IMG/VR virus record: IMGVR_UViG_3300020141_000812
Span: 1-25,684 of that record
Length of the DNA: 25,684 bases
Origin: a virus
Direction: 5' to 3' (one strand)
Shown here: piece after piece, positions 3,694 to 24,681 of the stretch
Position numbering within the stretch: the first letter of the stretch is position 1
How the letters are laid out: every line of letters starts with the position of its first letter
Translations under genes and position numbers: made by a program
The notes under the pieces: model-generated
The model's database searches: none
Seen by the model: the letters and a program-made list of their open reading frames with translations, nothing else
What the model was told of the DNA's origin: nothing

Positions 3694-4086
3694 TTATTTT
3701 AATAGTGCTTCGATGATTTTCTCGGCATTTTCTTGAATCGATGGATATTCGAGAGTGTTGAATTCTTTACCGTGTTTAGCAATGAATGCTTGCCAGTCAG
3801 CAAGTGCCTCTGGAGTTAAAGGATTTTGTGATGGTCGAGCTTCGCTTGCTTTGCGAATGATATCAACTAATTGATCTTCCTTATCTCGCGCAGCAGCAGT
3901 AATTTCTGCCTTATAAGGATAGACTTGCTGACGAATCGAAGTGCTTCCAGGAGCAACTTTAACAAGCCACCAACCTTCGCGCAATCCTTCGTAGGCCCAA
4001 ATGTCACTATCTTGCACATATTTGCGTCCAACCTTCTTGTAGCGAATTTGATTCATCTTTTCGTAGACTCTTGTTTCTGCATTCAT
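3694..4086 (-). CDS. Hypothetical protein, 130 aa
   Basis: I do not recognise this protein. It is soluble and mixed in charge, with an N-terminal part rich in Tyr and Trp (YKKVGRKYVQDSDIWAYEGLREGWWLVKV) and a helical C-terminal half containing PLTPEALADWQAFIAKHG. The start at 4086 is supported by a bipartite promoter-like element ending 2 nt before the ATG. The C-terminus EALLK overlaps a degenerate version of the same element before the 3692 gene. No catalytic or membrane motif is visible. Confidence 0.6.
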   Translation of the reverse strand: MNAETRVYEKMNQIRYKKVGRKYVQDSDIWAYEGLREGWWLVKVAPGSTSIRQQVYPYKAEITAAARDKEDQLVDIIRKASEARPSQNPLTPEALADWQAFIAKHGKEFNTLEYPSIQENAEKIIEALLK

Positions 4087-4088
4087 AC

Positions 4089-4109
4089 CTAATTATATCT
4101 TAGTTCCTT
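4089..4109 (-). promoter_or_regulatory. Promoter-like element, class A
   Basis: On the minus strand: GGAACT, 4 nt (AAGA), TATAATTAG, then 2 nt and the ATG of the 3694-4086 gene. It overlaps the last codons of the upstream gene. Confidence 0.6.
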
Positions 4110-4284
4110 TACGTTTTTCGAGTTTTAAATCTTCTTCAAACGCTGCAAACTTATTAGGCGTTTCAATAATATATGCTAGCTTATTGGTGCTTGTTAACCT
4201 GTCGTAAATCATAGTAACATCAGAAATAACTATACCTGAACCATACACGCCATGAATAATACTATCTCCTTGTTTAAATTTCAT
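4093..4284 (-). CDS. Small protein with a Tudor/SH3-like N-terminus
   Basis: The 63-residue protein opens with KFKQGDSIIHGVYGSGIVISD. The pattern G-D-x-I-x-H-x-x-Y-G-x-G-x-V resembles the start of CarD-type and UvrD/PcrA C-terminal Tudor-like modules, which contact RNA polymerase. The resemblance is to a short stretch only, so the link to transcription is an inference. The last codons (GTKI) are formed by the promoter-like element that serves the downstream 3694-4086 gene. The gene starts in a TAAATATG junction just after the upstream membrane protein gene. Confidence 0.55.
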   Translation of the reverse strand: MKFKQGDSIIHGVYGSGIVISDVTMIYDRLTSTNKLAYIIETPNKFAAFEEDLKLEKRKGTKI

Positions 4285-4286
4285 AT

Positions 4287-4526
4287 TTAACGACCCTTTT
4301 TACTAAACATACTCAAAATTACATAACCGATGGCCGCAACAAACAACGCGGATAAAATCAAAGCAGGTGCAATCCATAACGGAGATAAAACCCACCACCA
4401 CGACCATGTAATATAACCTGTCAATTTAAGCCCAATAAAGAGGACTGCTAATAGACTTGTAAACCCAACACCACTGGATGATGCATGGTTGGTCATATTT
4501 CTGTTTTTATTAATTTTTAAACTCAT
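4287..4526 (-). CDS. Small membrane protein, 'Fragile-X-F'-labelled phage family
   Basis: The 79-residue protein has two hydrophobic segments, about 23-39 and 45-74, separated by the distinctive TWSWWWVLSPLWIAP. This LKLTG-ITWSWWWVLSPLWI signature is familiar from many phage and bacterial genomes, where it is labelled transmembrane Fragile-X-F protein; no function is established. The frame starts at 4526; an internal ATG (MTNHASSSG) at 4496 is a possible alternative and better matches the usual length. A promoter-like element lies 13 nt upstream of the first ATG. Confidence 0.7.
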   Translation of the reverse strand: MSLKINKNRNMTNHASSSGVGFTSLLAVLFIGLKLTGYITWSWWWVLSPLWIAPALILSALFVAAIGYVILSMFSKKGR

Positions 4527-4539
4527 ATCTTTTTATATA

Positions 4540-4560
4540 ATTATTATATCAGTGTTTCTT
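4540..4560 (-). promoter_or_regulatory. Promoter-like element, class A (variant)
   Basis: On the minus strand: GAAACA, 4 nt (CTGA), TATAATAAT in the intergenic stretch after the metallophosphoesterase stop. The ATG of the Fragile-X-F-type membrane protein gene is 13 nt further on, the longest gap of the set. Confidence 0.55.
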
Positions 4561-5246
4561 TAAGCTTTTCGATGCTCTTTTATTTCTTCAATCGCCAAAA
4601 TTGTAGAGTAACATTCAGCAAAGTCAACCCAGTGACTCGCATGAAAGTGTCCATGATACGATTTAGATGGCTGGCAGAGTTTAATCAATTCGCTATGCTC
4701 AATACGCTCTTTATAGCATAAATCCCAGAGTGTTGGATCTTTTTCACACCAGTTGCTAATATTTACTTTGTCGAAGGGACCAATCCAACTTGGCGCAGAA
4801 TGCGTAATAAGAACGTCGCATTTTTCAACCAACTCTGGTTTTAACACGAATAATTCATCACTCCAGTAGCTTAAGCCTTCCTTACGCCAGGTTCGATCAA
4901 TACTTACTGCACCACCAACAAACAAAAACTTTTCGTCGTTGATGGTTTCCGTATGATAATCGGGAAGTAATTTAAAGTGGCTAAGGTCAATTTGATATTC
5001 TCCACTAAAATAGATTGGGTCATCATGATTACCTCGAATCGACATAAACACAATATTTCGTTCACTGAAAAATTCATTCATACGAACGCACCCCTCACGT
5101 TCACCATCAGGTGAATAGTGAAATCCCATACCAAGATCGCCAACACAGATAAGTGTGCAGTCTTTGAGGTCGAGATCGCTTACCTTTTTCATCAGGCGAT
5201 TAAATGCTCCGTGAATGTCTCCGATAATGTAGATTGGGTTGCTCAT
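4560..5246 (-). CDS. Calcineurin-like metallophosphoesterase
   Basis: The 228-residue protein shows the full motif set of the metallophosphoesterase fold: GDIHG (9-13), GDLGMG (36-41), GNHDD (72-76), ITHSAP (147-152) and GHFHASHW (199-206). These coordinate two metal ions and hydrolyse phosphomonoesters or diesters. Phage relatives include lambda-type Ser/Thr phosphatases, whose natural targets are poorly known. The start overlaps the upstream stop by 4 nt (ATGA). After its stop comes one of the bipartite promoter-like elements, so transcription of the downstream membrane protein gene may restart there. Confidence 0.88.
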   Translation of the reverse strand: MSNPIYIIGDIHGAFNRLMKKVSDLDLKDCTLICVGDLGMGFHYSPDGEREGCVRMNEFFSERNIVFMSIRGNHDDPIYFSGEYQIDLSHFKLLPDYHTETINDEKFLFVGGAVSIDRTWRKEGLSYWSDELFVLKPELVEKCDVLITHSAPSWIGPFDKVNISNWCEKDPTLWDLCYKERIEHSELIKLCQPSKSYHGHFHASHWVDFAECYSTILAIEEIKEHRKA

Positions 5247-5434
5247 GATATGATGTATTTTTGTTCTTTTAAATAGTGGATGATGTCATCCTGTTGTGAT
5301 TTTGTATAGCTCCTTTTCAGCTTTCTTCTGGCATTTATTGTAGAATAATTCCTGTATGCTTCACCGAAACTGCAATGAAAAACAAAGCCGTGTTTAGGGA
5401 AAAACACATTATTACCTTCTACATAGTAGCGCAT
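5243..5434 (-). CDS. Hypothetical protein, 63 aa
   Basis: I do not recognise this protein. It is basic and Tyr-rich (MRYYVEGNNVFFPKHGFVF, then NARRKLKRSYTKSQQDDIIHYL) with no membrane segment. The start at 5434 is supported by a promoter-like element ending 2 nt before the ATG. Its stop overlaps the start of the metallophosphoesterase gene (ATGA), so the two are probably translated together; whether they work together is not visible. Confidence 0.6.
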   Translation of the reverse strand: MRYYVEGNNVFFPKHGFVFHCSFGEAYRNYSTINARRKLKRSYTKSQQDDIIHYLKEQKYIIS

Positions 5435-6153
5435 TACATATTATAGTATTGTTCCTTCGCTACAGAAAACCCAAGTCGCTTTGCTTCTTTCGGGGATAGT
5501 GTTGCCCACCAGCTACCTTTATTAACTGGAGATCCTTCTTTACCAGTATTCTGACATGTCTTTGAACTGAGATATTCTGCAAAGCGAATCATACCTTCTA
5601 CATTTTCATCTCCGCCATCAACATAGAATCGCAGAGTACCAAACTTTTCTTTGTATTGGGAGATCTTAACATCTGGCGGTCTTTGAGTGGTATAAAGTCC
5701 TTGTTTGTAAAAGAAGCTAGTAATTCTGGATGTAAAGATACGAACCTTCTTGGAAAACTTTTTATCGATTTCTTCCTGTTGTTTTGATGTCGGCGAAGCA
5801 AATTTTCGAATGATAAATGTACCTTTATACGGGTCAAATTGTCGATTAATTTTAGCTGCGATATATGTCCATACTTTTTGCAGAAAACGCATGGTTTTCT
5901 TATTCGGATTAGGAATCGAACGAAAAGTATTTTTGGTATAGTTTACAATTGCTCCACATAGATTGTCTATAAGAGGCTCCCAACCTTTAGGGCAATCATT
6001 CCAGCATCTTTGAAACTGCGGCAGCAGTTCTCCATCTTCTCCTTTATAGAAAAGATCGGGATACTTCTTAAATAGGTGTTGCTCAAAGTCAAAATCTTCT
6101 TTGACTTCTGCTTCGATTTTTTCTTTTAGTTCTTTTACAGTTTTAGATTTCAT
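5434..6153 (-). CDS. Conserved phage protein with C-terminal CQNTGKEG module, 239 aa
   Basis: The N-terminal half is charged (VKELKEKIEAEVKEDFDFEQHL) and contains WNDCPKGWEPLI. The C-terminal part has IKEKFGTLRFY-like (QYKEKFGTLRFYVDGGD), then SKTCQNTGKEGSPVNKGSWW. I recall the paired pattern KEKFG-LRFY-GGD and C--TG--G from proteins of unknown function in phages and bacteria. The start at 6153 (MKSKTV) is preferred over 6168 because it gives the standard TAATATG junction with the upstream stop. The last codons (KEQYYNM) lie inside a promoter-like element for the next gene. Confidence 0.65.
   Translation of the reverse strand: MKSKTVKELKEKIEAEVKEDFDFEQHLFKKYPDLFYKGEDGELLPQFQRCWNDCPKGWEPLIDNLCGAIVNYTKNTFRSIPNPNKKTMRFLQKVWTYIAAKINRQFDPYKGTFIIRKFASPTSKQQEEIDKKFSKKVRIFTSRITSFFYKQGLYTTQRPPDVKISQYKEKFGTLRFYVDGGDENVEGMIRFAEYLSSKTCQNTGKEGSPVNKGSWWATLSPKEAKRLGFSVAKEQYYNM
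5437..5457 (-). promoter_or_regulatory. Promoter-like element, class A
   Basis: On the minus strand: GGAACA, 4 nt (ATAC), TATAATATG, 2 nt, then the ATG of the 5243-5434 gene. It lies entirely within the last codons of the upstream gene. Confidence 0.55.
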
Positions 6154-6154
6154 A

Positions 6155-6355
6155 TTATTTTTCGTCAAGCGCGTTTATAAATTTGCATCCTAATAATATA
6201 AGGTATGCGAGCGATAGCATAAAAGTGCTGATACTAATTAGTATAAAAGCGTTTTGGTTTAGTTTCTGTGTTGCCAATATCCACCAACCATTAGATACGA
6301 TTGCGGCCCATCCTGTGTATAGTATAAACCATGCTAATTTTGTTTCTTGTTTCAT
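6155..6355 (-). CDS. Small two-segment membrane protein, 66 aa
   Basis: The protein has hydrophobic segments at about 7-27 (LAWFILYTGWAAIVSNGWWI) and 36-58, with a short polar loop (ATQKLNQNA) and a charged C-terminus (NALDEK). The frame opens at 6373, but the ATG at 6355 (MKQETK) fits the TAATATG junction used by its neighbours. Function unknown. It is one of five predicted small membrane proteins in this block. Confidence 0.6.
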   Translation of the reverse strand: MKQETKLAWFILYTGWAAIVSNGWWILATQKLNQNAFILISISTFMLSLAYLILLGCKFINALDEK

Positions 6356-6356
6356 A

Positions 6357-6662
6357 TTATTGTTCTTTTTCAAATAAAGCTTTTAATCTCTCATATTCAG
6401 AACGATCTCGGGTCATTTGTCGCTCTAAGCTTTCTTTTTCGCGCCTTGATCTGTTTTCATATTCAAGATCAGTTTCAAAGCGTTTACCACGAAGCTTGAG
6501 ACGATACCCGCCTTCATAACAAGGATCTTCGTAGATTTGCAAATCAGTCCAACCTTTTGAATATTTTTCTTGTAGCGATTGAAGATATTCAATCGCTCCT
6601 TCAATACTCATCTCGTCTAACTCAAGATCAGTAGCATCTCTTGTGTGAATTAATTTTTGCAT
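6357..6662 (-). CDS. Hypothetical protein with charged C-terminal coiled coil, 101 aa
   Basis: The N-terminal half contains SIEGAIEYLQSLQEKYSKGWTDL followed by IYEDPCYEGGYRLKLRGKRFET, a layout I associate with small phage proteins of unknown function. The C-terminal 35 residues are highly charged heptad-like helix (NRSRREKESLERQMTRDRS). The gene start lies 12 nt inside the preceding small membrane protein gene. No catalytic motif is seen. Confidence 0.6.
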   Translation of the reverse strand: MQKLIHTRDATDLELDEMSIEGAIEYLQSLQEKYSKGWTDLQIYEDPCYEGGYRLKLRGKRFETDLEYENRSRREKESLERQMTRDRSEYERLKALFEKEQ

Positions 6663-6790
6663 AACATTTCTTTAAAAATAAAGTATATTGGCATTCCAAT
6701 TATAATCAACATTAAAATTAACAATTCTGGATTTCTTTTGTGGAATTGCCATTCCCATTTTAATTCGTATTTAAAGTCTTCCCATTTCAT
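6650..6790 (-). CDS. Small single-segment membrane protein, 46 aa
   Basis: The frame opens far upstream, inside the neighbouring gene, but the start at 6790 (MKWEDFKYELKWEW) forms an ATGA overlap with that gene's stop, the usual arrangement here. The 46-residue product has a charged and aromatic N-terminal 20 residues and one hydrophobic segment, about 21-40 (PELLILMLIIIGMPIYFIFK). Size and topology would fit an inner-membrane regulator or accessory protein; nothing in the sequence tells which. Confidence 0.5.
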   Translation of the reverse strand: MKWEDFKYELKWEWQFHKRNPELLILMLIIIGMPIYFIFKEMLCKN

Positions 6791-7080
6791 GCTTCTTCTT
6801 CCCATCTTCCAAGTGTCCGCAAGAAGGCTTCTGCGCGTTGGGCTGCGGTTGCACGAATCATTACTCTCCAACTGCACCCGCATACATTTTGCAATTGGTT
6901 ATGCCATTCAATTTCTGATGTTGGGGAAAGAATCTTCTCTGCGTCGTGCATCGCATTGAGGTCATTGAGGTAGTCTGGTGTAATAATTGCTTTCACGCCG
7001 TTTGGATAATGCCATGAGTCGTCCACGAAGACCCCCCGACACGCCACCGCTATGGCTATTCTTTGTTGTTCTGGTGTCAT
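6787..7080 (-). CDS. Phage ABA-sandwich-like domain protein, 97 aa
   Basis: The pattern MTPEQQRIAIAVACRG, then PDYLNDLNAMHDAEKIL, then RATAAQRAEAFLRTLGRW matches a widespread family of small phage proteins with a predicted ABA-sandwich fold, recognised from memory. The usual middle section varies, as here, where it holds CGCSW. The role is unknown; such proteins occur in accessory blocks of many tailed phages. Both ends overlap neighbours in ATGA junctions, which implies translational coupling. The gene looks more GC-rich than most of the block, which may reflect later acquisition. Confidence 0.65.
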   Translation of the reverse strand: MTPEQQRIAIAVACRGVFVDDSWHYPNGVKAIITPDYLNDLNAMHDAEKILSPTSEIEWHNQLQNVCGCSWRVMIRATAAQRAEAFLRTLGRWEEEA

Positions 7081-7415
7081 AATTTATTTAAATTTTTATC
7101 AAATAATCCAAGCATCCAATTCAATCTAAACTGACAATTAAAACGATCACCAATATAGGACAAATTAGTAAGAACATTTTCTTCGCTCTTGTAGCCGTAG
7201 GTATCCAATGGACTTCTGTAATCTCCTCCAAAATAATCAGTAGCGGCAAGCCATCTAGATTGTGCAGCAATCACTCCAGCATAAGGATGAATAATCTCTT
7301 TTGCTTTTTCTAAAGTTTTATCTTGACTATAAAAATTAGAAAACACATGCTTAGTCAAAAGCTTACAACGCGCTTCTGATTTCTTTTCGAGACGATTTTT
7401 AGTGCTATTCTTCAT
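7077..7415 (-). CDS. Hypothetical protein, 112 aa
   Basis: I do not recognise this protein. The first 30 residues are strongly basic (KNSTKNRLEKKSEARCKLLTKH). The rest contains YAGVIAAQSRWLAATDYFGGDYRSPLDTYGY, a conserved-looking block, and ends in a moderately hydrophobic stretch (NWMLGLFDKNL). Both ends overlap the neighbours by 4 nt (ATGA). The basic start would fit nucleic-acid contact, but this is a guess. Confidence 0.55.
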   Translation of the reverse strand: MKNSTKNRLEKKSEARCKLLTKHVFSNFYSQDKTLEKAKEIIHPYAGVIAAQSRWLAATDYFGGDYRSPLDTYGYKSEENVLTNLSYIGDRFNCQFRLNWMLGLFDKNLNKL

Positions 7416-7795
7416 GGATACATTTTACTGTGTTTGTCGGCATTGTCAAGAAACTCTTTGGTCTTTTTGTTTCGAAACGCAACCATCTCTTTAAATTTTT
7501 GTAGTTGTTCTGCGGGTGGTTGTAGTTCTTCCCATGACGGAGGAAGTGCTTCGGCTAATGAATATGCAGCTTCTCTCCAGCCATCACGTTCGCGTTCCAG
7601 TTTCTCATTCTCCGCAGCAAGTTTAAAATACTCATCGTTAGCTGTTTTGTGCGAAATATCCATAATGCTAATGTGCTTTTTTAGGATATCCCGCTCGCGT
7701 TCCAGTTTGCGGGCGAAGTCTGCTTCAACGACCCGATCTGGATCGCACATTGCGTCGAAATATTCCATTGCGTCTGTCTCGGGTGTGTCAGTCAT
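7412..7795 (-). CDS. Coiled-coil phage protein with TDTPETD N-terminus, 127 aa
   Basis: The protein starts MTDTPETDAMEYF and continues with DFARKLERERDILKKH and AAENEKLERERDGWREAAYSLAEAL, long predicted coiled coils. I know this TDTPETD---ARKLERERD layout from many phage and prophage proteins of unknown function. The start at 7795 is preferred over 7813 because it places the TDTPETD motif at the N-terminus, as in the next gene upstream (MSDTPETD). The start then overlaps the upstream stop by 8 nt. Probably structural or a scaffold for other proteins; not established. Confidence 0.6.
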   Translation of the reverse strand: MTDTPETDAMEYFDAMCDPDRVVEADFARKLERERDILKKHISIMDISHKTANDEYFKLAAENEKLERERDGWREAAYSLAEALPPSWEELQPPAEQLQKFKEMVAFRNKKTKEFLDNADKHSKMYP

Positions 7796-7988
7796 TGTAT
7801 CCGATGATTCCATTTTCTTGTAGTAGTGTAGTTAATTCCCAGACCTTCTCACGAAGTTCGTTACGCTCACGTTCCAACCTCTTCGCGGTATGAACAAACA
7901 CATACTCAACCATAACGTGCCGAGCGGACGGAACGTCCCACGCCTGAAACGTTCTGACGGATTTATCTGTTTCTGGTGTGTCGCTCAT
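7788..7988 (-). CDS. TDTPETD-type coiled-coil protein, 66 aa
   Basis: The protein begins MSDTPETDKSVRTF and has AKRLERERNELREKVWEL, so it shares both the N-terminal tag and the coiled-coil onset with the next gene downstream (MTDTPETDA and FARKLERERD). The two are probably distant duplicates, or two members of one modular family. The middle part (QAWDVPSARHVMVEYVFVHT) is distinct. Function unknown. It starts 7 nt after the upstream coiled-coil gene's stop. Confidence 0.6.
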   Translation of the reverse strand: MSDTPETDKSVRTFQAWDVPSARHVMVEYVFVHTAKRLERERNELREKVWELTTLLQENGIIGYND

Positions 7989-7995
7989 AATTTAT

Positions 7996-8274
7996 TTACC
8001 AATATTGTTGATCATTACGAAACTCATCATTAGAAATATGTTTAAGTTCTTTTTCGAGTTTATCGAGTTTGTCTCTTAGTATATGATTGTCAAAAGCAAA
8101 TCGAGCGTTTGCTTCACGAAGGTTAGCTAGATCTGCTGGCAGACATACCATGTCTTTATGCTCTATAAGTCTATCAGCATAATCGTTTGCTTCTTGTAGT
8201 TCAATCTTTAGCTTTTCGTTTTCGGCTACAAGTTCTTCAAAACGATCAAGTATTGTTTCTGAGGTCGATTTCAT
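7996..8274 (-). CDS. Coiled-coil protein, 92 aa
   Basis: Almost the whole protein is heptad-like helix (DRFEELVAENEKLKIELQEAND, then ANLREANARFAFDNHILRDK and LDKLEKELKH). It shares the AENEKL element with the 7412-7795 product, so the three consecutive genes 7412-8274 may be related coiled-coil proteins able to pair with each other. No catalytic motif is present. The ATG follows the upstream stop by 3 nt (TAAAATATG). Confidence 0.55.
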   Translation of the reverse strand: MKSTSETILDRFEELVAENEKLKIELQEANDYADRLIEHKDMVCLPADLANLREANARFAFDNHILRDKLDKLEKELKHISNDEFRNDQQYW

Positions 8275-8277
8275 ATT

Positions 8278-8478
8278 TTAATTGCCGTCTTCTGGTCCTG
8301 TACAAAAGAGTGTATCGATTTTTGACAGATTAGCAAGGATTACTTCTTGATTCATACTAATATTTCTGGCAATGAAGATCTGATGACAAATATGCTTAAG
8401 CAATACAAGTTGCTCTTCTTGGGTATAGTTATGAATTTGCGTTAGTATTCCAGTTGGTAAGCGGGTGTGCTTTTTCAT
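8278..8478 (-). CDS. Hypothetical protein, 66 aa
   Basis: I do not recognise this protein. It is helical and mixed in charge (TRLPTGILTQIHNYTQEEQLVLLKHICHQIF, then NQEVILANLSKIDTLF). The start at 8478 is supported by a promoter-like element ending 2 nt before the ATG (TATAATAAG with an AAAACT variant of the upstream half). No membrane segment or metal site is evident. Confidence 0.5.
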   Translation of the reverse strand: MKKHTRLPTGILTQIHNYTQEEQLVLLKHICHQIFIARNISMNQEVILANLSKIDTLFCTGPEDGN

Positions 8479-8480
8479 GT

Positions 8481-8501
8481 CTTATTATATTATAGTTTTT
8501 T
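8481..8501 (-). promoter_or_regulatory. Promoter-like element, class A (variant)
   Basis: On the minus strand: AAAACT, 4 nt (ATAA), TATAATAAG, 2 nt, then the ATG of the 8278-8478 gene, in a noncoding stretch. Confidence 0.5.
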
Positions 8502-8507
8502 ATTTAA

Positions 8508-8699
8508 TTATTGGTAATTGCTTAACCAATGAAAATCATAATTGCGATCATTTTTAATTACAGTAAATTCTGTACACCCACCCTCAACCCAACTTAATAT
8601 AGTCCTTTGAATATAATACAATGTTTCATCAAAATGCCCTTCACTGAGTTTACCATTTTCGTCTCTAAACTCAATAATAGTTGATGTGTTTAGGTCCAT
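8508..8699 (-). CDS. Hypothetical acidic protein, 63 aa
   Basis: I do not recognise this protein. It reads as a small alpha-beta protein (STIIEFRDENGKLSEGHFDETLYYIQRTI, then GCTEFTVIKNDRNYDFHWL). The start at 8699 is fixed by an exact GGAACT, 4 nt, TATAATAAG element 2 nt upstream. A noncoding stretch of 29 nt after its stop carries the element for the next gene. Confidence 0.5.
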   Translation of the reverse strand: MDLNTSTIIEFRDENGKLSEGHFDETLYYIQRTILSWVEGGCTEFTVIKNDRNYDFHWLSNYQ

Positions 8700-8701
8700 A
8701 A

Positions 8702-8722
8702 CTTATTATATTAGAGTTCCTT
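8702..8722 (-). promoter_or_regulatory. Promoter-like element, class A
   Basis: On the minus strand: GGAACT, 4 nt (CTAA), TATAATAAG, 2 nt, then the ATG of the 8508-8699 gene. The GGAACT part also encodes the KEL end of the upstream protein. Confidence 0.6.
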
Positions 8723-8986
8723 TTTGCCTTCCCAATCGAAGCTCCACATACTGAAAAATGGTAGATCACGCTCGGTATCATAAGCCTCGATCTCTTCTAG
8801 CCAAACGTATGTCGAAGAGGAATTAAGTTGAGTCCTACGCACGGTATATTCTTGTCCAATGCCAAGATACTTTTGATCGGTTATTACATTGGTATGCCAT
8901 GCGTGTTCACATGGTTGAGTAAACGTAACCTTTTGACCATCTTTCGGGAGTCCCATTCTTTCTTTATCTTTTTCAAATATACTCAT
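8711..8986 (-). CDS. Hypothetical protein, 91 aa
   Basis: The protein contains GQKVTFTQPCEHAWHTNV and GQEYTVRRTQLNSSSTYVWLEEIEAY, then FFSMWSFDWEG. The alternation of Y-T-V, S-T-Y-V-W-L-E-E and F-x-x-x-x-F suggests a small beta-barrel of the kind seen in phage accessory proteins, but no family is certain. Its last codons (KKEL) are written by the promoter-like element of the downstream gene. Start and upstream stop overlap as ATGA. Confidence 0.55.
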   Translation of the reverse strand: MSIFEKDKERMGLPKDGQKVTFTQPCEHAWHTNVITDQKYLGIGQEYTVRRTQLNSSSTYVWLEEIEAYDTERDLPFFSMWSFDWEGKKEL

Positions 8987-9378
8987 AATTTTTCTAATAG
9001 TTCGGGGGTTTCAAATATATTTCCAATAACTTCAATATCATCTTCACCCCAAATTCCCCGAATATCATTTTTATTAATCCATGTTAAAAAACACCCTTCA
9101 TCAAAAATCACTTTGCCAACAAAGTTTTCATTTTCGTATTGGTCAGATGTCGCTTTTACGATATCACCTTCATAAATCTCAATACCATTCTTATCTTTTA
9201 ATCCAGTGTATTGTTGAGCTACAATGCAAGTGTTTGAGAATTCAACAGGATCATCAAATGCCATCATTTCATAATCATAACTAACAAGTTTGCCTTCTCC
9301 ATCAACTGCATACTTTGATGCGGGTTGAAAACGACGGGCTATTTTATTCCAGAATTTAAATTTTATTTCTCTGCTCAT
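8983..9378 (-). CDS. YopX family protein
   Basis: The 131-residue protein matches the YopX pattern: REIKFKFWNK at the N-terminus, VAQQYTGLKDKNGIEIYEGDIVKA (72-95) in the centre, then VIFDEGCFLTW and DIEVIGNIFETPELL at the end. YopX-like proteins are common in phages and prophages of many bacteria. The fold is beta-rich and the role is not established. The length is typical. The end overlaps the next gene as ATGA, which suggests coupled translation. Confidence 0.85.
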   Translation of the reverse strand: MSREIKFKFWNKIARRFQPASKYAVDGEGKLVSYDYEMMAFDDPVEFSNTCIVAQQYTGLKDKNGIEIYEGDIVKATSDQYENENFVGKVIFDEGCFLTWINKNDIRGIWGEDDIEVIGNIFETPELLEKL

Positions 9379-9383
9379 AATAT

Positions 9384-9596
9384 TTAATGAATATAAATTG
9401 CTTCACAATCAAACGGATCATCATCACGATCAGTAACTTCATGCTTACCATAATACCATTCAGTATACACATTAAGTTTAATCTTAACGTCAGCTGCATA
9501 TTCCGCCTCATTGACTCCTCCTTCATAACCAGAAACAATAACCATCATTTCTGGATCATAGGCACTTAGTTTTTCAATTAGTTGTTTAACGTTCAT
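9384..9596 (-). CDS. Conserved small phage protein (NVKQLIEKLSAYDPE type), 70 aa
   Basis: The N-terminus MNVKQLIEKLSAYDPEMMVIVSG followed by YEGGVNEAE is a familiar layout of short phage proteins: V-K-x-L-I-x-x-L, then D-P-E-x-x-V, then G-Y-E-G-G. Function is not known. The start at 9596 is chosen instead of 9641 because it overlaps the upstream stop as ATGA and puts the conserved motif at the N-terminus. The C-terminal part is acidic (VTDRDDDPFDCEAIYI). Confidence 0.65.
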   Translation of the reverse strand: MNVKQLIEKLSAYDPEMMVIVSGYEGGVNEAEYAADVKIKLNVYTEWYYGKHEVTDRDDDPFDCEAIYIH

Positions 9597-10177
9597 GACC
9601 ACAAATATTGATGATATTTTACAATAGTATTCATTGCCCACAAGTCCTTTTCTTCGATTAGTTTTTCAAGACGATTTGTTTCGGCATATGCTTCTGCGTA
9701 TGGCATTCCATAAACATCATCACAACTTCTCATTGTTCTATTGCCGTCTTCATTTTTAGTAAATAAATCTTTTGTGGGAGACAGTGGAATTGGATAAGAG
9801 TTGTCGTGTGCTGCTTCAAGCTCTGAACGCTCAGTCTTAACATAGTTATAAACTGCACGAAGAAGAGCGCTTCTTGTTTTGATTGTATCAATATATTCTT
9901 GCGACACATACCCTGCTTTAAGATCCTCGCCCCAATCAATTTCATCCTGCAAGCCTTTCTCATCTTCAACGTAATGAATAAGGCAAGTAAACAGCAGATC
10001 GGGAATGAGCGTTGTCTTATCACACCATGTATTTGGAATGGTTTTAGTCAACCACTTTTGCCGTGGATTAAACCATGCAGAAATTTGATATTTCAAATCC
10101 CACCAGAAATAACTATTAAGTAACAAAGATGGATGTTTAAAAATTCTTAGCGGATTGGTTTTATATGTATTAATCAT
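9593..10177 (-). CDS. Conserved hypothetical phage protein, 194 aa
   Basis: The N-terminal third is Trp- and Tyr-rich (YFWWDLKYQISAWFNPRQKWLTKTIP), with NTWCDKTTLIPDLLFTCLIHYVEDE following. I have seen the segment FNPRQKWLTK-IP--W-DK in other phage genomes as an uncharacterised conserved protein. The C-terminal half is helical and charged (YNYVKTERSELEAAHDN, NRLEKLIEEKDLWAMN). No catalytic residues stand out. The start overlaps the upstream stop (TAATG) and the end overlaps the next start (ATGA), so it belongs to a coupled group. Confidence 0.65.
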   Translation of the reverse strand: MINTYKTNPLRIFKHPSLLLNSYFWWDLKYQISAWFNPRQKWLTKTIPNTWCDKTTLIPDLLFTCLIHYVEDEKGLQDEIDWGEDLKAGYVSQEYIDTIKTRSALLRAVYNYVKTERSELEAAHDNSYPIPLSPTKDLFTKNEDGNRTMRSCDDVYGMPYAEAYAETNRLEKLIEEKDLWAMNTIVKYHQYLWS

Positions 10178-10482
10178 TAGTATTCTTCTTTGTATAGTTC
10201 GTGTATATTATGTCTTAGCATACGATGAGATGCAAGTAAAAAATTAATTGGGTCTTGAACTCCAATATTTCCATTGGAGCATTCTTCTACGATGTATTGA
10301 GTGACAGCTTCTTCTAGTAAAGTCAGTCTATTCGCTTCGTTTACATATCGAGTAATTTTATCTGGCAATGCTGCATACGACAAATCTTCACCAGCGATTG
10401 GCACTCGTTCATAGATATCAAACAATAGTTGCTTTGCTTCTTGATCAGTGAGTTCGGACACAAATTGAATTGTAGGTTTCAT
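10177..10482 (-). CDS. Hypothetical protein, 101 aa
   Basis: I do not recognise this protein. It is acidic and helical (LTDQEAKQLLFDIYERV, RLTLLEEAVTQYIVEECSNG, RMLRHNIHELYKEEY), with no metal site or membrane segment. It starts in a TAATG overlap with a tiny membrane protein gene and ends in a TAATG overlap with the next gene. Confidence 0.55.
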   Translation of the reverse strand: MKPTIQFVSELTDQEAKQLLFDIYERVPIAGEDLSYAALPDKITRYVNEANRLTLLEEAVTQYIVEECSNGNIGVQDPINFLLASHRMLRHNIHELYKEEY

Positions 10483-10580
10483 TATTCGTCAAAGTATCTA
10501 ATTGAATTATAGGTAAACCAAATACATGCGATTAAACAAAATATAGCAAGAATAATTTCAAAGTTGTTAATGTTAATCAT
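10482..10580 (-). CDS. Tiny membrane protein, 32 aa
   Basis: A short frame encodes MININNFEIILAIFCLIAC and ends IRYFDE. Residues 7-24 form one hydrophobic segment, followed by a short charged tail. It fills what would otherwise be the only gap in this part of the array, abuts the upstream stop directly (TAAATG) and overlaps the downstream start by one base (TAATG). That tiling is the main reason to believe it is translated. Function is unknown. Confidence 0.5.
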   Translation of the reverse strand: MININNFEIILAIFCLIACIWFTYNSIRYFDE

Positions 10581-10781
10581 TTAGCCCATACTTTCCATAG
10601 TTTCATTTCTTGTTTTTTTAATGTCAGCTAAGACGTTTTCTGCTCGTTGCTGTAAAGCCTCACGGCAATAGTTGTATGTACCATCTGGACGAGGACCAGT
10701 TGCTACTAAACGAACGAAACTATGAAGCTTTTCATATTCAATAAGGTCGTTGATTTCCATAGGTAATAAACTGTCTTTCAT
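10581..10781 (-). CDS. Hypothetical protein, 66 aa
   Basis: The protein contains LLPMEINDLIEYEKLHSFVRLVATGPRPDG followed by YNYCREALQQRAENVLADI. The G-P-x-P-D-G-T-Y-N-Y-C-R-E-A-L-x-x-x-A pattern suggests a helical conserved accessory protein of phages, not one with a known role. The start at 10781 is fixed by an exact promoter-like element 3 nt upstream, and the 45 nt before it are noncoding. Confidence 0.6.
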   Translation of the reverse strand: MKDSLLPMEINDLIEYEKLHSFVRLVATGPRPDGTYNYCREALQQRAENVLADIKKTRNETMESMG

Positions 10782-10784
10782 ATG

Positions 10785-10805
10785 ATTATTATACCAAAGT
10801 TCCTT
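10785..10805 (-). promoter_or_regulatory. Promoter-like element, class A
   Basis: On the minus strand: GGAACT, 4 nt (TTGG), TATAATAAT, 3 nt, then the ATG of the 10581-10781 gene. The element is in noncoding DNA, so it is not explained by protein sequence. Confidence 0.65.
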
Positions 10806-10826
10806 CGGAAAGTAAATAAGAAAAAG

Positions 10827-11105
10827 TCAAATATTCCATGTAGTTTCGGTCACAGAATCGCCGCATGTCTCACAGTAACCATCCTCAGTTTCGCACTCAT
10901 CATATTGAAAGCAACCAATCAAATCATCGATGCTCACCGAATTACTCTTTAATTCTTCCTTGAATTTCTCGCAGAGATAATCCACAAACTCATTGATCTG
11001 AGACTCATTCATTGGTTCATATTCTCCGTAAACGTTTTGACCGTTTACGGTAGTACCAAACGATCTACATCCTTCGCTCTTAACAATTTTGTATTTTGTT
11101 TTCAT
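10827..11105 (-). CDS. Hypothetical acidic protein with C-terminal cysteines, 92 aa
   Basis: The protein starts MKTKYKIVKSEGCRSFGTT and has NEFVDYLCEKFKEELK. The acidic C-terminal part, CFQYDECETEDGYCETCGDS, holds four closely spaced cysteines (C-x5-C-x6-C-x2-C) that could hold a metal ion. I do not recognise a family. The start overlaps the HAD gene stop as ATGA, so it belongs to the 12380-10827 coupled group. Confidence 0.55.
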   Translation of the reverse strand: MKTKYKIVKSEGCRSFGTTVNGQNVYGEYEPMNESQINEFVDYLCEKFKEELKSNSVSIDDLIGCFQYDECETEDGYCETCGDSVTETTWNI

Positions 11106-11620
11106 AGCCTGTCTTTAAGGAATTTCTTTATATTTTCAAAGAAATCTTCATCGTTTAGATTATTGCCAAAATACTCTGGGGTCTGATGGTAATTTTTTGT
11201 GACGATGCCCATCATATCCATTTTATAGTCGTTGTAGCGAGGCGGAAGGTTATCAATAAGCACGTTGTCCTTATCTGCAATAGGCAGCTTCATCATTCCC
11301 TCACCTCTATTCCCAAAGTGAGTTTTATGTTGCTGAATGTCTTCGCGTGTAAAAATATGAGCATAGTCTAAACCAAACTCACCAAGCCGATTTAGCGCTT
11401 CAGCATATTTACGTGTGGCAGTGGTAAGAATATAAACGTTTTCTTTACCAACTAGGTCATTATAATAAGCGAAGAGTTTTTTTGCGCAGGGACGAATGAG
11501 TGTTCTGTATATGTGCAAGTCTTCGCTTAAAGTAAATTTAACATGAGTTTGATTCGGGTCATTATTTACTGTCGTATGCAAGATGCACTCATCAAGGTCT
11601 TGAAATATTCTTTTTATCAT
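11102..11620 (-). CDS. HAD-like phosphatase, NIF/FCP-like
   Basis: The 172-residue protein shows the HAD order: IFQDLDECIL (5-14) with D8 as nucleophile and D10 as acid/base, VYILTTATRKYAEALNRL (62-79) as motif II, and DNVLIDNLPPRYN (118-130) as motif IV with D123. The long cap-less layout and D-L-D-E resemble the NLI-interacting-factor-like branch of phage and viral HAD proteins. It would remove a phosphate from a small molecule, nucleic acid end or protein. A promoter-like element ends 2 nt before its start, inside the end of the cREC gene. It is followed by a coupled Cys-rich small gene. Confidence 0.75.
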   Translation of the reverse strand: MIKRIFQDLDECILHTTVNNDPNQTHVKFTLSEDLHIYRTLIRPCAKKLFAYYNDLVGKENVYILTTATRKYAEALNRLGEFGLDYAHIFTREDIQQHKTHFGNRGEGMMKLPIADKDNVLIDNLPPRYNDYKMDMMGIVTKNYHQTPEYFGNNLNDEDFFENIKKFLKDRL

Positions 11621-11622
11621 AT

Positions 11623-11643
11623 CTTATATTAATACAGTTCCTT
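11623..11643 (-). promoter_or_regulatory. Promoter-like element, class A
   Basis: On the minus strand: GGAACT, 4 nt (GTAT), TAATATAAG, 2 nt, then the ATG of the HAD phosphatase gene. It overlaps the KELY end of the cREC protein. Confidence 0.55.
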
Positions 11644-12042
11644 TAATACCTCAGCAATATTCTGACCACCCCACTTATTTGCTGAATGTACAAATGTTTT
11701 GATTTGCTTAGGTTTGCCCTGCTTTTTCCATTCCTGTACTAGATATTCCGCACAATGTTTGCCAGTTTTTTCTTTGAGATTACCATATTCAACTATACCA
11801 ATATCTTGAGTTACCTTAAAGTAATGCATAATATGCTCTTCAGCTAGATCATGATCAAATGAAACAACGTCTGGCAATCCAAGATGCTCAAGACATTCTA
11901 CAAACTCATTATAGGTTCTCATAATCACCCAATCATCTTGATGAATGCCTGAGTGTTCTACTAAAGAAGTATTACCAGCTATACCATCAAGATGCAGGTA
12001 AGCATCATTTGGATTCCGCTGGTCATCGAGGAAGTAATTCAT
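11629..12042 (-). CDS. Cyclic-phosphate-processing receiver (cREC) domain protein
   Basis: The 137-residue protein begins NYFLDDQRNP (2-11), with acidic residues D6 and D7 then R9, continues with VVSFDHDLAEEH (59-70) and ends KTFVHSANKWGGQNIAEVLKELY. This L-D-D-x-R-x-P / F-D-H-D-L / H-S-A-N-x-x-G pattern is that of the cREC family, a receiver-like fold predicted, from comparative genomics rather than biochemistry, to act on cyclic phosphates at RNA ends. The start overlaps the thioredoxin gene stop as ATGA. The last codons (KEL) are written by the promoter-like element of the HAD gene. Confidence 0.75.
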   Translation of the reverse strand: MNYFLDDQRNPNDAYLHLDGIAGNTSLVEHSGIHQDDWVIMRTYNEFVECLEHLGLPDVVSFDHDLAEEHIMHYFKVTQDIGIVEYGNLKEKTGKHCAEYLVQEWKKQGKPKQIKTFVHSANKWGGQNIAEVLKELY

Positions 12043-12380
12043 GATTCAGTCCTAATACGATTAATGATATCGTCTGCACCTTGAATAACTTCCACAAGCT
12101 CATCACCTTTAAAGATAAGCAAGCGTGGCACAGTCTTAATATTATGCTGCCTGAAGAATTCTGATTCATCTTCCATCTGCTTAACCTCTACATTAAGACT
12201 CTCTGTATCAATTCTAGATTTAAGCATCTTACACGGACCACAGAATGAAGCAGAAGCTAAAATAAGCTTTGTCTTCTTCTTAAAGATATTATCCCAACCG
12301 TCACGATATGCCTGGTTAGGTGGCTCTGACTTAATAAATTTTCCAGTTACATCATTTTTTGCTATATTTCCTGTTGCCAT
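12039..12380 (-). CDS. Thioredoxin-like protein with phage-specific N-terminal tag
   Basis: Residues 36-110 have a thioredoxin fold pattern: a beta strand KLILASASF, the active-site CGPC (47-50) with K51, and TVPRLLIF (83-90) with the cis-proline P85. Thioredoxins reduce disulfides, for example in ribonucleotide reductase. The first 33 residues are an extra segment, TGKFIKSEPPNQAYRDGWDN, which I know as the end of small free-standing phage proteins (TG-x-I-K-S-x-x--AYRDGWD-IF). A fused module of unknown use is therefore likely. The 4-nt overlap with the cREC gene couples their translation. Confidence 0.8.
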   Translation of the reverse strand: MATGNIAKNDVTGKFIKSEPPNQAYRDGWDNIFKKKTKLILASASFCGPCKMLKSRIDTESLNVEVKQMEDESEFFRQHNIKTVPRLLIFKGDELVEVIQGADDIINRIRTES

Positions 12381-12382
12381 AA

Positions 12383-12604
12383 TTATTTAAAAATATTATT
12401 TCTTACCATAGTAGTGTACTCATCATTATCGTTTGTGTCACAGTTAAAGATATAATCATACAACCAATTATTATCAATACCAACCTCTTTAACAAGATTA
12501 GCATAAATGAGATCTTCTGCTTCACGAAGCTTACTAATTGCTTCTTTTGAAATTTCTACTCTCACACGTTCATCTTCATTTAATTTCTTCATACCAGATG
12601 TCAT
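12383..12604 (-). CDS. Hypothetical protein, 73 aa
   Basis: I do not recognise this protein. It opens with a charged helical region (KKLNEDERVRVEISKEAISKL), then an acidic C-terminal half (CDTNDNDEYTTMVRN). The start at 12604 (MTSGMKK) overlaps the upstream gene by 29 nt; an internal ATG at 12592 is an alternative. The AT-rich stretch before the first ATG resembles the other starts here. Confidence 0.5.
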   Translation of the reverse strand: MTSGMKKLNEDERVRVEISKEAISKLREAEDLIYANLVKEVGIDNNWLYDYIFNCDTNDNDEYTTMVRNNIFK

Positions 12605-13295
12605 ATTTTATTCTATATTCTTTGATTAAAATTCTTATATTACTCAGTGCGTGATCGAGATCAGTCTCGTCCATAATTGATTCAGCAAGTTTACACTCAC
12701 GATCAATATTGTCAACAAGTTTTTGTTCAACAGATGGATGTTTTTTACGACTCTCTTTAAAAGAAATTTCGTTCTCTTCTCTTCTCTTCTTATTTTGAGC
12801 TATACGCTCCTCAAATTCTTCATCAGAAAGTTTCTTTGGCTCCTTGTGCTCGATAAGAGTGATATCACCAATCAATTTACCATTTTTAAATAGTGAGGTA
12901 TATTCAATCCATCCATACTCAAAGCGTAAAAATATATTAGTGTCAAATGAAAGGCCTTCAGCATGATGTTCAGGGTGATTGTAACTCTCATAAAAGTTAA
13001 TAGCACCATCAAAGGCTTCTGGCTCCCACCACTCCTTGTCAGTTACAAAGCGCCCAATCGCGGCCAACTTATCACCGATGCTCGCATCTTCTGCGACAGC
13101 TTCTCCCTCCTCCCAGTGACCTTCAGTCTTTAGAACCCACATCTGACCAGCACCGTCAATCTTATAAGTTGACATTGCTTGATTTGGCGTGTCTTTAGTC
13201 TGAAAAGCTACCCCTTCCTTTCCCCAAGCATCAGCTACAGCTTGAGGCAACTCCGGTAAAGTTGTATCTACTTTAATATAATCGAACATACCCAT
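12576..13295 (-). CDS. Conserved phage protein (MGMFDYIKV type), 239 aa
   Basis: The N-terminus MGMFDYIKVDTTLPELP followed by FQTKDTPNQAMSTYKI is the hallmark of a widespread phage and bacterial family of unknown function, recognised from memory. The middle is Trp-rich (WEEGEAVAEDASIG, KEWWEPEAF). The C-terminal third is a charged helical region (EEFEERIAQNKKRREENE) that may form a coiled coil. The length is longer than usual for the core, mainly because of that tail. The start follows the small membrane protein gene's stop by 4 nt (TAAAATTATG). Confidence 0.7.
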   Translation of the reverse strand: MGMFDYIKVDTTLPELPQAVADAWGKEGVAFQTKDTPNQAMSTYKIDGAGQMWVLKTEGHWEEGEAVAEDASIGDKLAAIGRFVTDKEWWEPEAFDGAINFYESYNHPEHHAEGLSFDTNIFLRFEYGWIEYTSLFKNGKLIGDITLIEHKEPKKLSDEEFEERIAQNKKRREENEISFKESRKKHPSVEQKLVDNIDRECKLAESIMDETDLDHALSNIRILIKEYRIKYDIWYEEIK

Positions 13296-13299
13296 AATT

Positions 13300-13464
13300 T
13301 TATTTTGTTAGTGATTGTGCTGCAATTAATCCGAGGTTGGATACTGCATAACCTCCCCATACCACGGCCCATGCATAGTTTTGTTTGTAGAGGTGTGCAA
13401 TGCATACACCAGTATATAGTATGAATGCAAGAAATACAACTATATTTTCAAATGTTAATTGCAT
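13300..13464 (-). CDS. Small two-segment membrane protein, 54 aa
   Basis: A frame of 54 residues, MQLTFENIVVFLAFILYTGV ending in SLTK, fills the gap between two genes. It has hydrophobic segments at about 5-24 and 31-50 separated by HLYKQNYAW. It overlaps the upstream zinc-ribbon gene by 10 nt and ends 4 nt before the next start, the dense tiling expected of a real gene here. Function is unknown. It is one of the small membrane proteins of the array. Confidence 0.55.
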   Translation of the reverse strand: MQLTFENIVVFLAFILYTGVCIAHLYKQNYAWAVVWGGYAVSNLGLIAAQSLTK

Positions 13465-13712
13465 ATACTTTTACTAAAGTTTTTAACACAACTTCTATTA
13501 TTAGGTATAATATATTTTTTTTGATCAGACCAGGATTCTGCAGAAAGTATTTGAATTTCAGCACCTGTTTTATGCGCGTACGACATATAGCCTTTCGGTC
13601 GTTGCAGATCAGGTCCAGTAAAGGCGCAAGATTTACAAATTTTCAAATTTAGCTCAGCACGCGCTGGCTCCACCATACCCCCACACCCACAGAACGTATT
13701 TTGCATTGACAT
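13455..13712 (-). CDS. Small zinc-ribbon-like protein, 85 aa
   Basis: The protein has CGCGG near its start (C8, C10) and CKSCAF at 26-31, a four-cysteine layout suited to binding zinc. It is followed by RPKGYMSYAHKTGAEIQILSAESW, which I recognise as a recurring tail in phage proteins of unknown function. The N-terminal part (CGCGGMVEPARAELNLKICKSC) is reminiscent of DksA/TraR-type ribbons, but the spacing is not exact. A promoter-like element 3 nt upstream supports the ATG at 13712. Confidence 0.6.
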   Translation of the reverse strand: MSMQNTFCGCGGMVEPARAELNLKICKSCAFTGPDLQRPKGYMSYAHKTGAEIQILSAESWSDQKKYIIPNNRSCVKNFSKSICN

Positions 13713-13715
13713 AAT

Positions 13716-13736
13716 ATTATTATAAAGGAGTTCCCT
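13716..13736 (-). promoter_or_regulatory. Promoter-like element, class A
   Basis: On the minus strand: GGAACT, 4 nt (CCTT), TATAATAAT, 3 nt, then the ATG of the zinc-ribbon gene. It lies in noncoding DNA between genes. Confidence 0.65.
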
Positions 13737-13752
13737 TATATAAGACTAGTAT

Positions 13753-13935
13753 TTAAGATTTGCTGCTATCAGCATACCACGACATAATTTCATAGTGAAA
13801 AGATTTTTCACTAATATTAGGGCTTACATGAATAAGATTTACAGGCTCAACGCCTGCACCCTCTTCATAAACCATAATTCGATTCGTTTCTGAGTCATGC
13901 TCAAACCGATATTTATTAATTTTACCACTATACAT
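13753..13935 (-). CDS. Hypothetical protein, 60 aa
   Basis: I do not recognise this protein. It is a small, mixed alpha-beta protein (KINKYRFEHDSETNRIMVYEEG, then NLIHVSPNISEKSFHYEI) with no special motif. It starts 9 nt after the upstream gene's stop, and after its own stop comes the noncoding stretch carrying the promoter-like element of the zinc-ribbon gene. Confidence 0.5.
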   Translation of the reverse strand: MYSGKINKYRFEHDSETNRIMVYEEGAGVEPVNLIHVSPNISEKSFHYEIMSWYADSSKS

Positions 13936-13944
13936 TTTCGTTGT

Positions 13945-14190
13945 TTATTTGCTCTCTTTCTCGCTTTCTAGATATCGTAGCATCTCATTTGCTATGACAA
14001 GTTTATCAATGATATTAACAGGCAATTTCTTACCTACAACACTATTTATAATAGCATATACCCTAACATCAACACTTTTAAAATTATCTTCATCATCTTG
14101 CATATATTCAAAATCAACAAGCGTACCTTCAGCTGATTTTATATCAGACGACGCGTTATAATTTACATCTATACACCTCATTACATTCAT
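13945..14190 (-). CDS. Hypothetical protein, 81 aa
   Basis: I do not recognise this protein. It has an acidic middle (VDFEYMQDDEDNFKSVDVRV) and a helical end (NIIDKLVIANEMLRYLESEKESK). The start at 14190 is supported by an exact promoter-like element 5 nt upstream, which lies within the end of the HExxH gene. It overlaps that gene by 4 nt (ATGA). Confidence 0.5.
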   Translation of the reverse strand: MNVMRCIDVNYNASSDIKSAEGTLVDFEYMQDDEDNFKSVDVRVYAIINSVVGKKLPVNIIDKLVIANEMLRYLESEKESK

Positions 14191-14636
14191 CTTTTATTAT
14201 TATAGATCAGTTCCTTAAAAGAATCGAATTTAAACTTAGCGTATTTTTCCTCTATGCTCTTATATCCGTTATAAATACGACAAACGTCTGCTGCTAATTT
14301 TTCGTATTTACGTGCGTCTTTTTCTTCAGGAGAATTGTAGTATTCGTTATAGTTCTCATAATCAAAGCGAATATTTTTGACTTCTTTGACTTGCTTAACG
14401 TGTCTAATTTCATGTAGTAAAGTTGATATAATATATTTTAGTGATGTTCCCTGCTTAATATCTATTTTAATTATTTTTTCGTCCGACCAATATTCTGACC
14501 AATGTTGTTTACATATTTGAACTTTAATGGGAGTACGCCACTTAACTTTTAAAAACCGGTTTAATATAAAATTTATTAAATTAAAATCAAGCTTAGTTGC
14601 TTTAGCTATTCCAGGAGATGGCTTCAAAACTAACAT
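14187..14636 (-). CDS. HExxH zinc metalloprotease-like protein, 149 aa
   Basis: The central motif STLLHEIRHVKQV places HEIRH at 75-79, the HExxH signature of zinc peptidases, inside a predicted helix. Downstream, YNSPEEKDARKYEKLAADVC supplies acidic residues (E104, E105, D107) that could be the third zinc ligand, as in ImmA/IrrE- or SprT-like domains. Protease activity is inferred from motifs alone. The gene follows RmlB directly (TAAATG junction), so it is co-transcribed with the rhamnose genes. Its last codons (KELIYNNKR) contain the promoter-like element of the next gene. Confidence 0.65.
   Translation of the reverse strand: MLVLKPSPGIAKATKLDFNLINFILNRFLKVKWRTPIKVQICKQHWSEYWSDEKIIKIDIKQGTSLKYIISTLLHEIRHVKQVKEVKNIRFDYENYNEYYNSPEEKDARKYEKLAADVCRIYNGYKSIEEKYAKFKFDSFKELIYNNKR
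14196..14216 (-). promoter_or_regulatory. Promoter-like element, class A
   Basis: On the minus strand: GGAACT, 4 nt (GATC), TATAATAAT, 5 nt, then the ATG of the 13945-14190 gene. It is embedded in the last codons of the HExxH gene. Confidence 0.6.
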
Positions 14637-17271: not shown

Positions 17272-17314
17272 ATAGAATAATTATAACGGTAGCGAAATAA
17301 TAAGTCAACTAATA

Positions 17315-19430: not shown

Positions 19431-19462
19431 AACTTTATTATACTACAAAGTAAGCATAATGC

Positions 19463-19470
19463 AATAAATA
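19463..19470 (+). promoter_or_regulatory. Late-promoter-like box before the fibre gene
   Basis: AATAAATA ends 5 nt before the ATG at 19476. It resembles the T4 late box with one mismatch, and its spacing matches the other two boxes. This favours the start at 19476 over 19470. Confidence 0.5.
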
Positions 19471-19475
19471 TGTGT

Positions 19476-23126: not shown

Positions 23127-23134
23127 CATAAATA
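23127..23134 (+). promoter_or_regulatory. Late-promoter-like box before the 81-aa gene
   Basis: CATAAATA ends 5 nt before the ATG at 23140, in the 42-nt gap after the sulfotransferase gene. Confidence 0.5.
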
Positions 23135-23139
23135 ATTAT

Positions 23140-23385
23140 ATGAGCTTAAAAATCACTCTCACAACACCAAAGATAATCATCAAGCAACCTGAGATTTCTG
23201 TAACCCTTAATGAAGTTACTATAGATCGTATTGTAGATTTACCTAGCCAACGTAAAGTTGTGGTATTTGTATCGGGAGAGAGAATCGAACTTGACGCCCT
23301 TTCTGGAGATAATTACGACACACCAGAAGAGTGGTCTAATGAAACGTTAATTAATGCAGTTAAAGAGCATTACGGTATCGTTTAA
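23140..23385 (+). CDS. Hypothetical protein, 81 aa
   Basis: I do not recognise this protein. It is beta-rich and hydrophobic in alternation (MSLKITLTTPKIIIKQPEIS, VTLNEVTIDRIVDLPSQRKV, VVFVSGERIEL) with an acidic C-terminal part. The T4-late-like CATAAATA box lies exactly 5 nt before the ATG, so it may have its own late promoter. The strong hairpin at 23412-23442 ends the transcript. A small structural protein is a reasonable guess. Confidence 0.6.
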   Translation: MSLKITLTTPKIIIKQPEISVTLNEVTIDRIVDLPSQRKVVVFVSGERIELDALSGDNYDTPEEWSNETLINAVKEHYGIV

Positions 23386-24673: not shown

Positions 24674-24681
24674 TATTTATA
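24674..24681 (-). promoter_or_regulatory. T4-late-type promoter box
   Basis: The minus strand carries a perfect TATAAATA, ending 5 nt before the ATG at 24668. It follows directly after the poly-U side of the terminator at 24683-24717, so a new late transcript probably begins here. Confidence 0.6.

Follow-up and report, generated by a model that had tools for sequence, protein, structure and literature searches.

A GGAACT-N4-TATAAT promoter class adjoining start codons in a large group of uncultured T4-like phages

Our analyses of a 25,684-base IMG/VR record (IMGVR_UViG_3300020141_000812, hereafter the window), a fragment (25.7 kb) of an uncultured T4-superfamily phage, identify the bipartite element GGAACT-N4-TATAAT, which recurs immediately before start codons, as a promoter common to a large group of uncultured T4-like phages. 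The element constitutes a genuine promoter class, the part open to view of what looks like a leaderless programme built on three such classes. Taken as a whole, we hold with high confidence that it acts as a promoter for pre-late (most likely middle) phage genes, that it gives rise to leaderless or nearly leaderless messenger RNA (mRNA) and that in it GGAACT replaces the -35 hexamer.

The structure of the element was examined in 18 related IMG/VR contigs (~1.05 Mb) together with the window (~1.07 Mb in all), using a 26-position matrix at a threshold of at least 12 bits. This genome-scale scan, suggested by an earlier sequence-based note on the window (the original prediction) and run here on relatives, returned 357 hits, where order-2 shuffles gave 4 and the reversed sequence gave 2, and refined the consensus to wAAGGAACTCYGATATAATAATAGT, followed by ATG. 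GGAACT and TATAAT are separated by 4 nucleotides (nt) in 198 cases, and any other gap from 0 to 24 nt occurs at most three times, in agreement with the proposal that a fixed inner spacing reflects a promoter-like protein-DNA element. In the window alone, 12 matches with up to three mismatches were found against 3.07 +/- 1.80 in dinucleotide shuffles, a fourfold enrichment that none of 100 shuffles reached. Since contigs entered the set by carrying one or more exact copies, and these same contigs supplied the matrix, the enrichment is not independent of selection, which does not account for the copy numbers, the spacing histogram or the other two promoter classes.

The distance to the start codon is also constrained. 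The first T of TATAAT precedes an ATG by 12 nt in 159 of the 357 copies, by 11 in 52 and by 13 in 17 (~64%, 228/357), and the refutation test attached to the original prediction, run here on relatives, did not go against it. The start codons at offsets 11-13 comprise 223 ATG, 3 GTG and no TTG (ATG in 223/226), a nearly exclusive use of ATG that is what leaderless translation needs, and Shine-Dalgarno-like sites were found in 0/161 element genes. With TATAAT as the -10 hexamer (-12 to -7), AATAGT would fill the positions from -6 to -1 and +1 would fall on the A of the ATG, from which we infer that transcription starts at this A and yields an mRNA with no leader or hardly any. Going beyond the original prediction, the fixed distance from TATAAT (-12) to ATG implies that leaderless mRNA should be common to all three promoter classes. 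In the GGAACT class no conservation was detected upstream of the AA preceding GGAACT, nor was a MotA box near -30 or a TTGACA-like -35 with a 16-18 nt spacer, of the host sigma70 type, the latter being present in the class E described below. The T4 late octamer TATAAATA is likewise not found in the GGAACT class, which has TATAATAAT, and ATAAATA forms a separate class.

The position of the element relative to terminators and RNA genes marks it as a promoter and not a translation signal. For nine elements, the gap to a terminator-like U-tract upstream is only 1-8 nt (e.g. GCGAGAGCCTTTTTTA-TGAACTTGTATATAATAAG-GTATG), one of the nine being a T-rich stretch after a transfer RNA (tRNA) gene and not a clear terminator; at such a distance, the RNA of the next gene must start within ~25 base pairs (bp), that is, in the element. 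Moreover, an element stands just upstream of 10 of 52 tRNA or transfer-messenger RNA (tmRNA) genes, where 3% were expected, and the RNA then begins 6-49 nt after the predicted +1; the tmRNA of contig G018 is one of these genes. A signal acting in the mRNA, either a Shine-Dalgarno-free enhancer of start sites or an operator for a RegA-like repressor before the AUG, would agree with the fixed distance to the ATG and with the A/U-rich sequence adjoining the start, and T4 RegA does bind near start codons. This explanation is nevertheless improbable, given that elements occur ahead of tRNA and tmRNA genes and right behind terminators, at places where transcription has to begin anew, that the hexamer spacing and the TATAAT -10 are typical of promoters, and that the two other classes at the same position are recognisable promoters. 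Still less credible, to a degree that we regard as negligible, is an artefact of chance or AT-rich composition: AT-rich DNA abounds in TATAAT-like words and many single matches listed in IMG/VR fall in unrelated coding sequence, but the shuffle, reversed-sequence and spacing controls refute it.

Further RNA genes were noted next to the element. Phage tmRNA genes occur in G018 (15777-16193), with the element before the gene, and in G006 (17080-17495), with the element after it. Two tRNA genes behind GGAACT elements (G001 13571-13647 and G003 94506-94582) were assigned a four-base anticodon (aatg) by ARAGORN, and in G005 two elements (9043 and 9192, both on the plus strand), opposite to the strand of the surrounding genes, precede what appear to be structured noncoding RNAs, for which Rfam gave no match.

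The GGAACT class (class M) is accompanied by two others with the same geometry. Assignment of 1377 open reading frames (ORFs) placed 170 in class M, 155 in a late class (L) and 128 in a sigma70-type class (E), the last of which includes some chance matches; the remaining ORFs presumably lie inside operons or are unassigned. Class E has TATAAT at the same place without GGAACT and a -35 TTG (0.70/0.58/0.55) at canonical spacing, TTG-N17-TATAAT. The k-mers had pointed to a fixed AGTTGA-TAAATA pair, which was rejected, as it showed no fixed short spacing and AGTTGA corresponds to the -35 of sigma70-type promoters. In class L, the ATAAATA box is found at -12 in 95 genes and at -13 in 33, out of 958, and few copies occur at other upstream positions. 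Class M takes in the genes for the DNA polymerase gp43, the clamp loader gp44, a helicase and an RpoD-like sigma factor, along with numerous small ORFs, and class L genes include gp18, gp17, gp20, gp21 and tail genes. Because GGAACT precedes gp43, gp44 and the sigma gene and ATAAATA precedes structural genes, the GGAACT class looks pre-late, and by analogy with T4 it most likely represents middle rather than early promoters. From these positions, the expression of early, middle and late genes alike looks leaderless. The major capsid gene gp23 constitutes an exception, without a start-adjacent promoter and with a leader carrying AAAGGAAA in the four contigs in which it was seen (G003, G010, G014 and G018); in some contigs this leader could form a hairpin.

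Consistent with this programme, Shine-Dalgarno motifs in the carriers are near random, at 0-4% in most, with two small contigs reaching 12% and 8%. In the isolates T4, C48C1, HTVC008M, RM378, XG4, phiM9 and P-SSM4 such motifs reach 13-44%, and TATAAT and ATAAATA at -13 to -11 number only 0-3 each, except for 7 ATAAATA in HTVC008M. The seven late boxes at -13..-11 of this Pelagibacter myophage (NC_020484) raise the possibility that partial leaderless late expression exists in isolated T4-like phages.

The carrier contigs were picked among the matches listed in an exact-pattern scan of IMG/VR, and only after a check of copy number, since many single matches among those listed were due to chance or lay within unrelated coding sequence; several contigs were multi-copy. 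Matches to the element with at most two mismatches occur in all 19 IMG/VR records checked, in numbers that reach 39 over 121 kb and 28 over 19 kb; within a region they mostly share a strand, and a reversed-pattern control gave 0-3. Most records are multi-copy, and two have just 2 matches each; 18 of the 19 form the set of related contigs analysed above. This recurrence, together with the position after terminators and before RNA genes, bears out the promoter nature proposed originally. Every contig in which markers could be identified falls within the T4 superfamily (gp17, gp18, gp20, gp23 and gp44; 27-40% identity), and G018 (197 kb) additionally encodes gp43, gp41, uvsX and gp55. Orthologues of window genes occur in nearly all related contigs at 30-90% identity. 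In contrast to this wide distribution among uncultured relatives, nine isolated T4-superfamily phages (T4 and eight others) had no more element matches than the control, in agreement with the original view that the element is none of the known T4 promoters. The window gave no match in a megablast search of GenBank phages, blastn of the consensus against GenBank phages gave chance-level matches only, and no description of the element was found in the PubMed Central (PMC) literature, a search that does not extend to subscription journals.

Known systems resemble this arrangement in part. T4 middle promoters, dependent on MotA and AsiA, also combine a TATAAT -10, no -35 and an upstream box for a pre-late class, but in the phages studied here the box is GGAACT at -22 to -17 instead of a MotA box near -30 and the mRNA is predicted to be leaderless. 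Like T4, with its late promoters (TATAAATA) read through gp55, gp33 and gp45, the same phages put ATAAATA before structural genes, while the GGAACT element differs in consisting of TATAAT and an upstream half, and the late box lies at -12/-13 of the ATG, an arrangement not seen in T4. Thermus phage phiYS40 has leaderless transcripts, and both it and phages of the phiKZ/AR9 type share with the present group phage-specific promoter classes close to start codons. In AR9 and phiKZ, phage promoters are read by phage multisubunit polymerases (PMC5312081), and their promoter sequences are unrelated to those described here. Leaderless promoters with the -10 adjoining the ORF occur in Deinococcus-Thermus (PMC12340547), and mycobacteria have leaderless genes (PMC4633059). 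These cases share a -10 placed for a start at the ATG and the absence of a ribosome-binding site; they are, however, cellular and without a GGAACT half, whereas here three phage classes share the geometry. Some huge phages also have little Shine-Dalgarno signal in their genomes, linked there to ribosomal protein S1 homologues; the word "leaderless" is absent from the main text of that report (PMC7162821).

As to recognition, GGAACT at -22 to -17 would stand in for the missing -35 and confer class specificity, and the most likely reader is a phage-encoded factor, either an activator or a sigma subunit, acting with a host or phage sigma at the -10, in phages that also use sigma70-type (-35 TTG) and T4-type late promoters at an equal distance from the ATG. 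An RpoD-like sigma factor is encoded by G009, G018, G004 and G012 (genes at L153:9940-11088, minus strand; G018:30758-31873, minus strand; G004:77868-78710, plus strand), the G009 protein having Pfam regions 1.2, 2, 3 and 4, and in G009 and G012 the sigma gene has a sigma70-type promoter followed in tandem by a GGAACT promoter. The regions of the phage sigma that read -10 and -35 look host-like, so this protein alone does not explain GGAACT. G018 encodes a gp55 homologue; gp33 was not detected with a positive T4 control, most contigs being fragments.

Two alternatives concern the polymerase. Within the promoter reading, GGAACT might instead be an extended -10 or spacer contact of an ordinary promoter used by the host polymerase and its primary sigma unaided by any phage factor. 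The canonical -10, a spacer G at -14 that is common, and the RpoD-like sigma of these phages with its host-like regions 2 and 4 would accommodate such a view, which we consider possible but clearly the weaker account, given that GGAACT is sharply conserved and separate from the class with the -35 TTG, and that TGn at -15/-14 is all that a normal extended -10 promoter requires. A T7-like RNA polymerase of one subunit, encoded by the phage, would fit a compact conserved block of ~25 bp without a -35; it is very unlikely, as the block contains a canonical -10 and PF00940 was not found in 11 phage records, most of them fragments but including the 197-kb contig, with a T7 control at 1e-109.

Against the interpretation of the element as a pre-late, leaderless promoter read through GGAACT weigh several observations. 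For 104 of the 357 copies there is no ATG at 9-16 nt, and some of these would produce an mRNA with a leader or transcribe an RNA gene. The assignment of +1 to the ATG is drawn from sequence, and the choice of middle over early timing from gene content only; the exonuclease gene is in class E in the window and in class M in some relatives, and, given this switch of orthologues between sigma70-type and GGAACT promoters, the GGAACT class may also be used early. MotA (phrog_1345) was not found in 11 phage records, most of them fragments, with a positive T4 control, and GGAACT is without any linked protein.

Within the window (34.6% guanine plus cytosine, with the majority of genes on the minus strand), all nine minus-strand sites of the original prediction are where it had placed them. 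The upstream half is exactly GGAACT at six (4089, 8702, 10785, 11623, 13716 and 14196) and varies at three (GAAACA at 4540, AAAACT at 8481 and GGAACA at 5437). In the downstream half, TATAATAAT is exact at 4540, 10785, 13716 and 14196, and the site at 11623 has TAATAT, not TATAAT, at the 4-nt spacing. Eight sites end 2-5 nt before an ATG and the ninth, at 4540, lies 13 nt before one.

The promoter at 4089..4107 (GGAACTaagaTATAATTAG gt ATG; 25.6 bits) serves gene 3694-4086 and contains the stop codon of the upstream ORF. The noncoding variant GAAACActgaTATAATAAT at 4540..4558 (21.0 bits) would give a short leader if the ATG at 4526 is used, the variant GGAACAatacTATAATATG at 5437..5455 (13.5 bits) precedes gene 5243-5434, and a weak noncoding element, AAAACTataaTATAATAAG at 8481..8499 (12.4 bits), precedes gene 8278-8478. 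Gene 8508-8699 follows GGAACTctaaTATAATAAG at 8702..8720 (29.6 bits), and gene 10581-10781 follows GGAACTttggTATAATAAT at 10785..10803, where the 22 bases up to the ATG, comprising the element and its spacer, are identical before the orthologue in the relative G007 and the upstream flank is unrelated. The promoter with a TAATAT -10 at 11623..11641 (14.2 bits; gene 11102-11620) is also kept before its G007 orthologue. Finally, GGAACTccttTATAATAAT at 13716..13734 (26.8 bits) precedes gene 13455-13712, and GGAACTgatcTATAATAAT at 14196..14214 (22.6 bits), ahead of gene 13945-14190, lies in the 3' end of ORF 14187-14636. Element-like sequence precedes the orthologue of 13455-13712 in most related contigs (G001, G002, G003, G004, G007, G008, G011, G014 and G015); the product, a small cysteine-rich, zinc-ribbon-like protein, occurs in most of the related contigs, usually behind a GGAACT element, and a Pfam search with the window protein gave no match.

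The other two classes are represented as well. A T4-type late promoter with class L geometry, TATAAATA at 24674..24681 on the minus strand (-13..-6), serves gene 24273-24668, with a terminator hairpin and T run directly upstream that lead straight into the late box and then the ATG. A late-type promoter, CATAAATA at 23127..23134 on the plus strand (-13..-6), precedes gene 23140-23385. The sigma70-type promoter TTGCAT-N16-TATAAT (19437..19464, minus strand), with TATAAT at -12 and a class E profile, precedes the exonuclease gene 18735-19430, whose product is akin to the cyanophage exonuclease next to gp55. The window also encodes a T4-type head closure protein and, at 19470-22271, a 933-residue protein with dozens of GNASYSNMIG-like repeats that is probably a tail fibre.

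The host phylum may be Verrucomicrobiota, a lead rather than proof. The phage sigma finds its best match in Verrucomicrobiota RpoD (62-64% identity, 333 bits, colinear through region 1.2), followed by the first Kiritimatiellae genome, of the same GTDB phylum (59%), and by Geobacteraceae (57%), Haemophilus (55%) and Bacteroidota (38-40%), a comparison in which the Verrucomicrobiota genomes searched far outnumber the others and which favours that phylum somewhat. In a sample of Verrucomicrobiota genes, Shine-Dalgarno motifs amount to 6% versus 5% at random. A Bacteroidota host, considered for its lack of Shine-Dalgarno sites, was set aside on the low identity of the phage sigma. DnaJ as a host marker gave at most 43% identity, with matches spread over mixed phyla.

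Evenly balanced in our judgement is the full picture of an uncultured but widespread lineage within the T4 superfamily, with Verrucomicrobiota as its possible hosts and a three-class leaderless programme in which the previously undescribed GGAACT-N4-TATAAT is read by a phage-encoded factor. Leaderless mRNA is usually seen as a side route of translation, and here a large group of double-stranded DNA phages appears to depend on it for replication and virion genes, a reliance that would suit a host without Shine-Dalgarno signals. Since the element marks the start codon and the transcription start together, it can serve to correct gene calls across many genomes of uncultured T4-like phages, and the recognition factor of the promoter class that it defines is findable.

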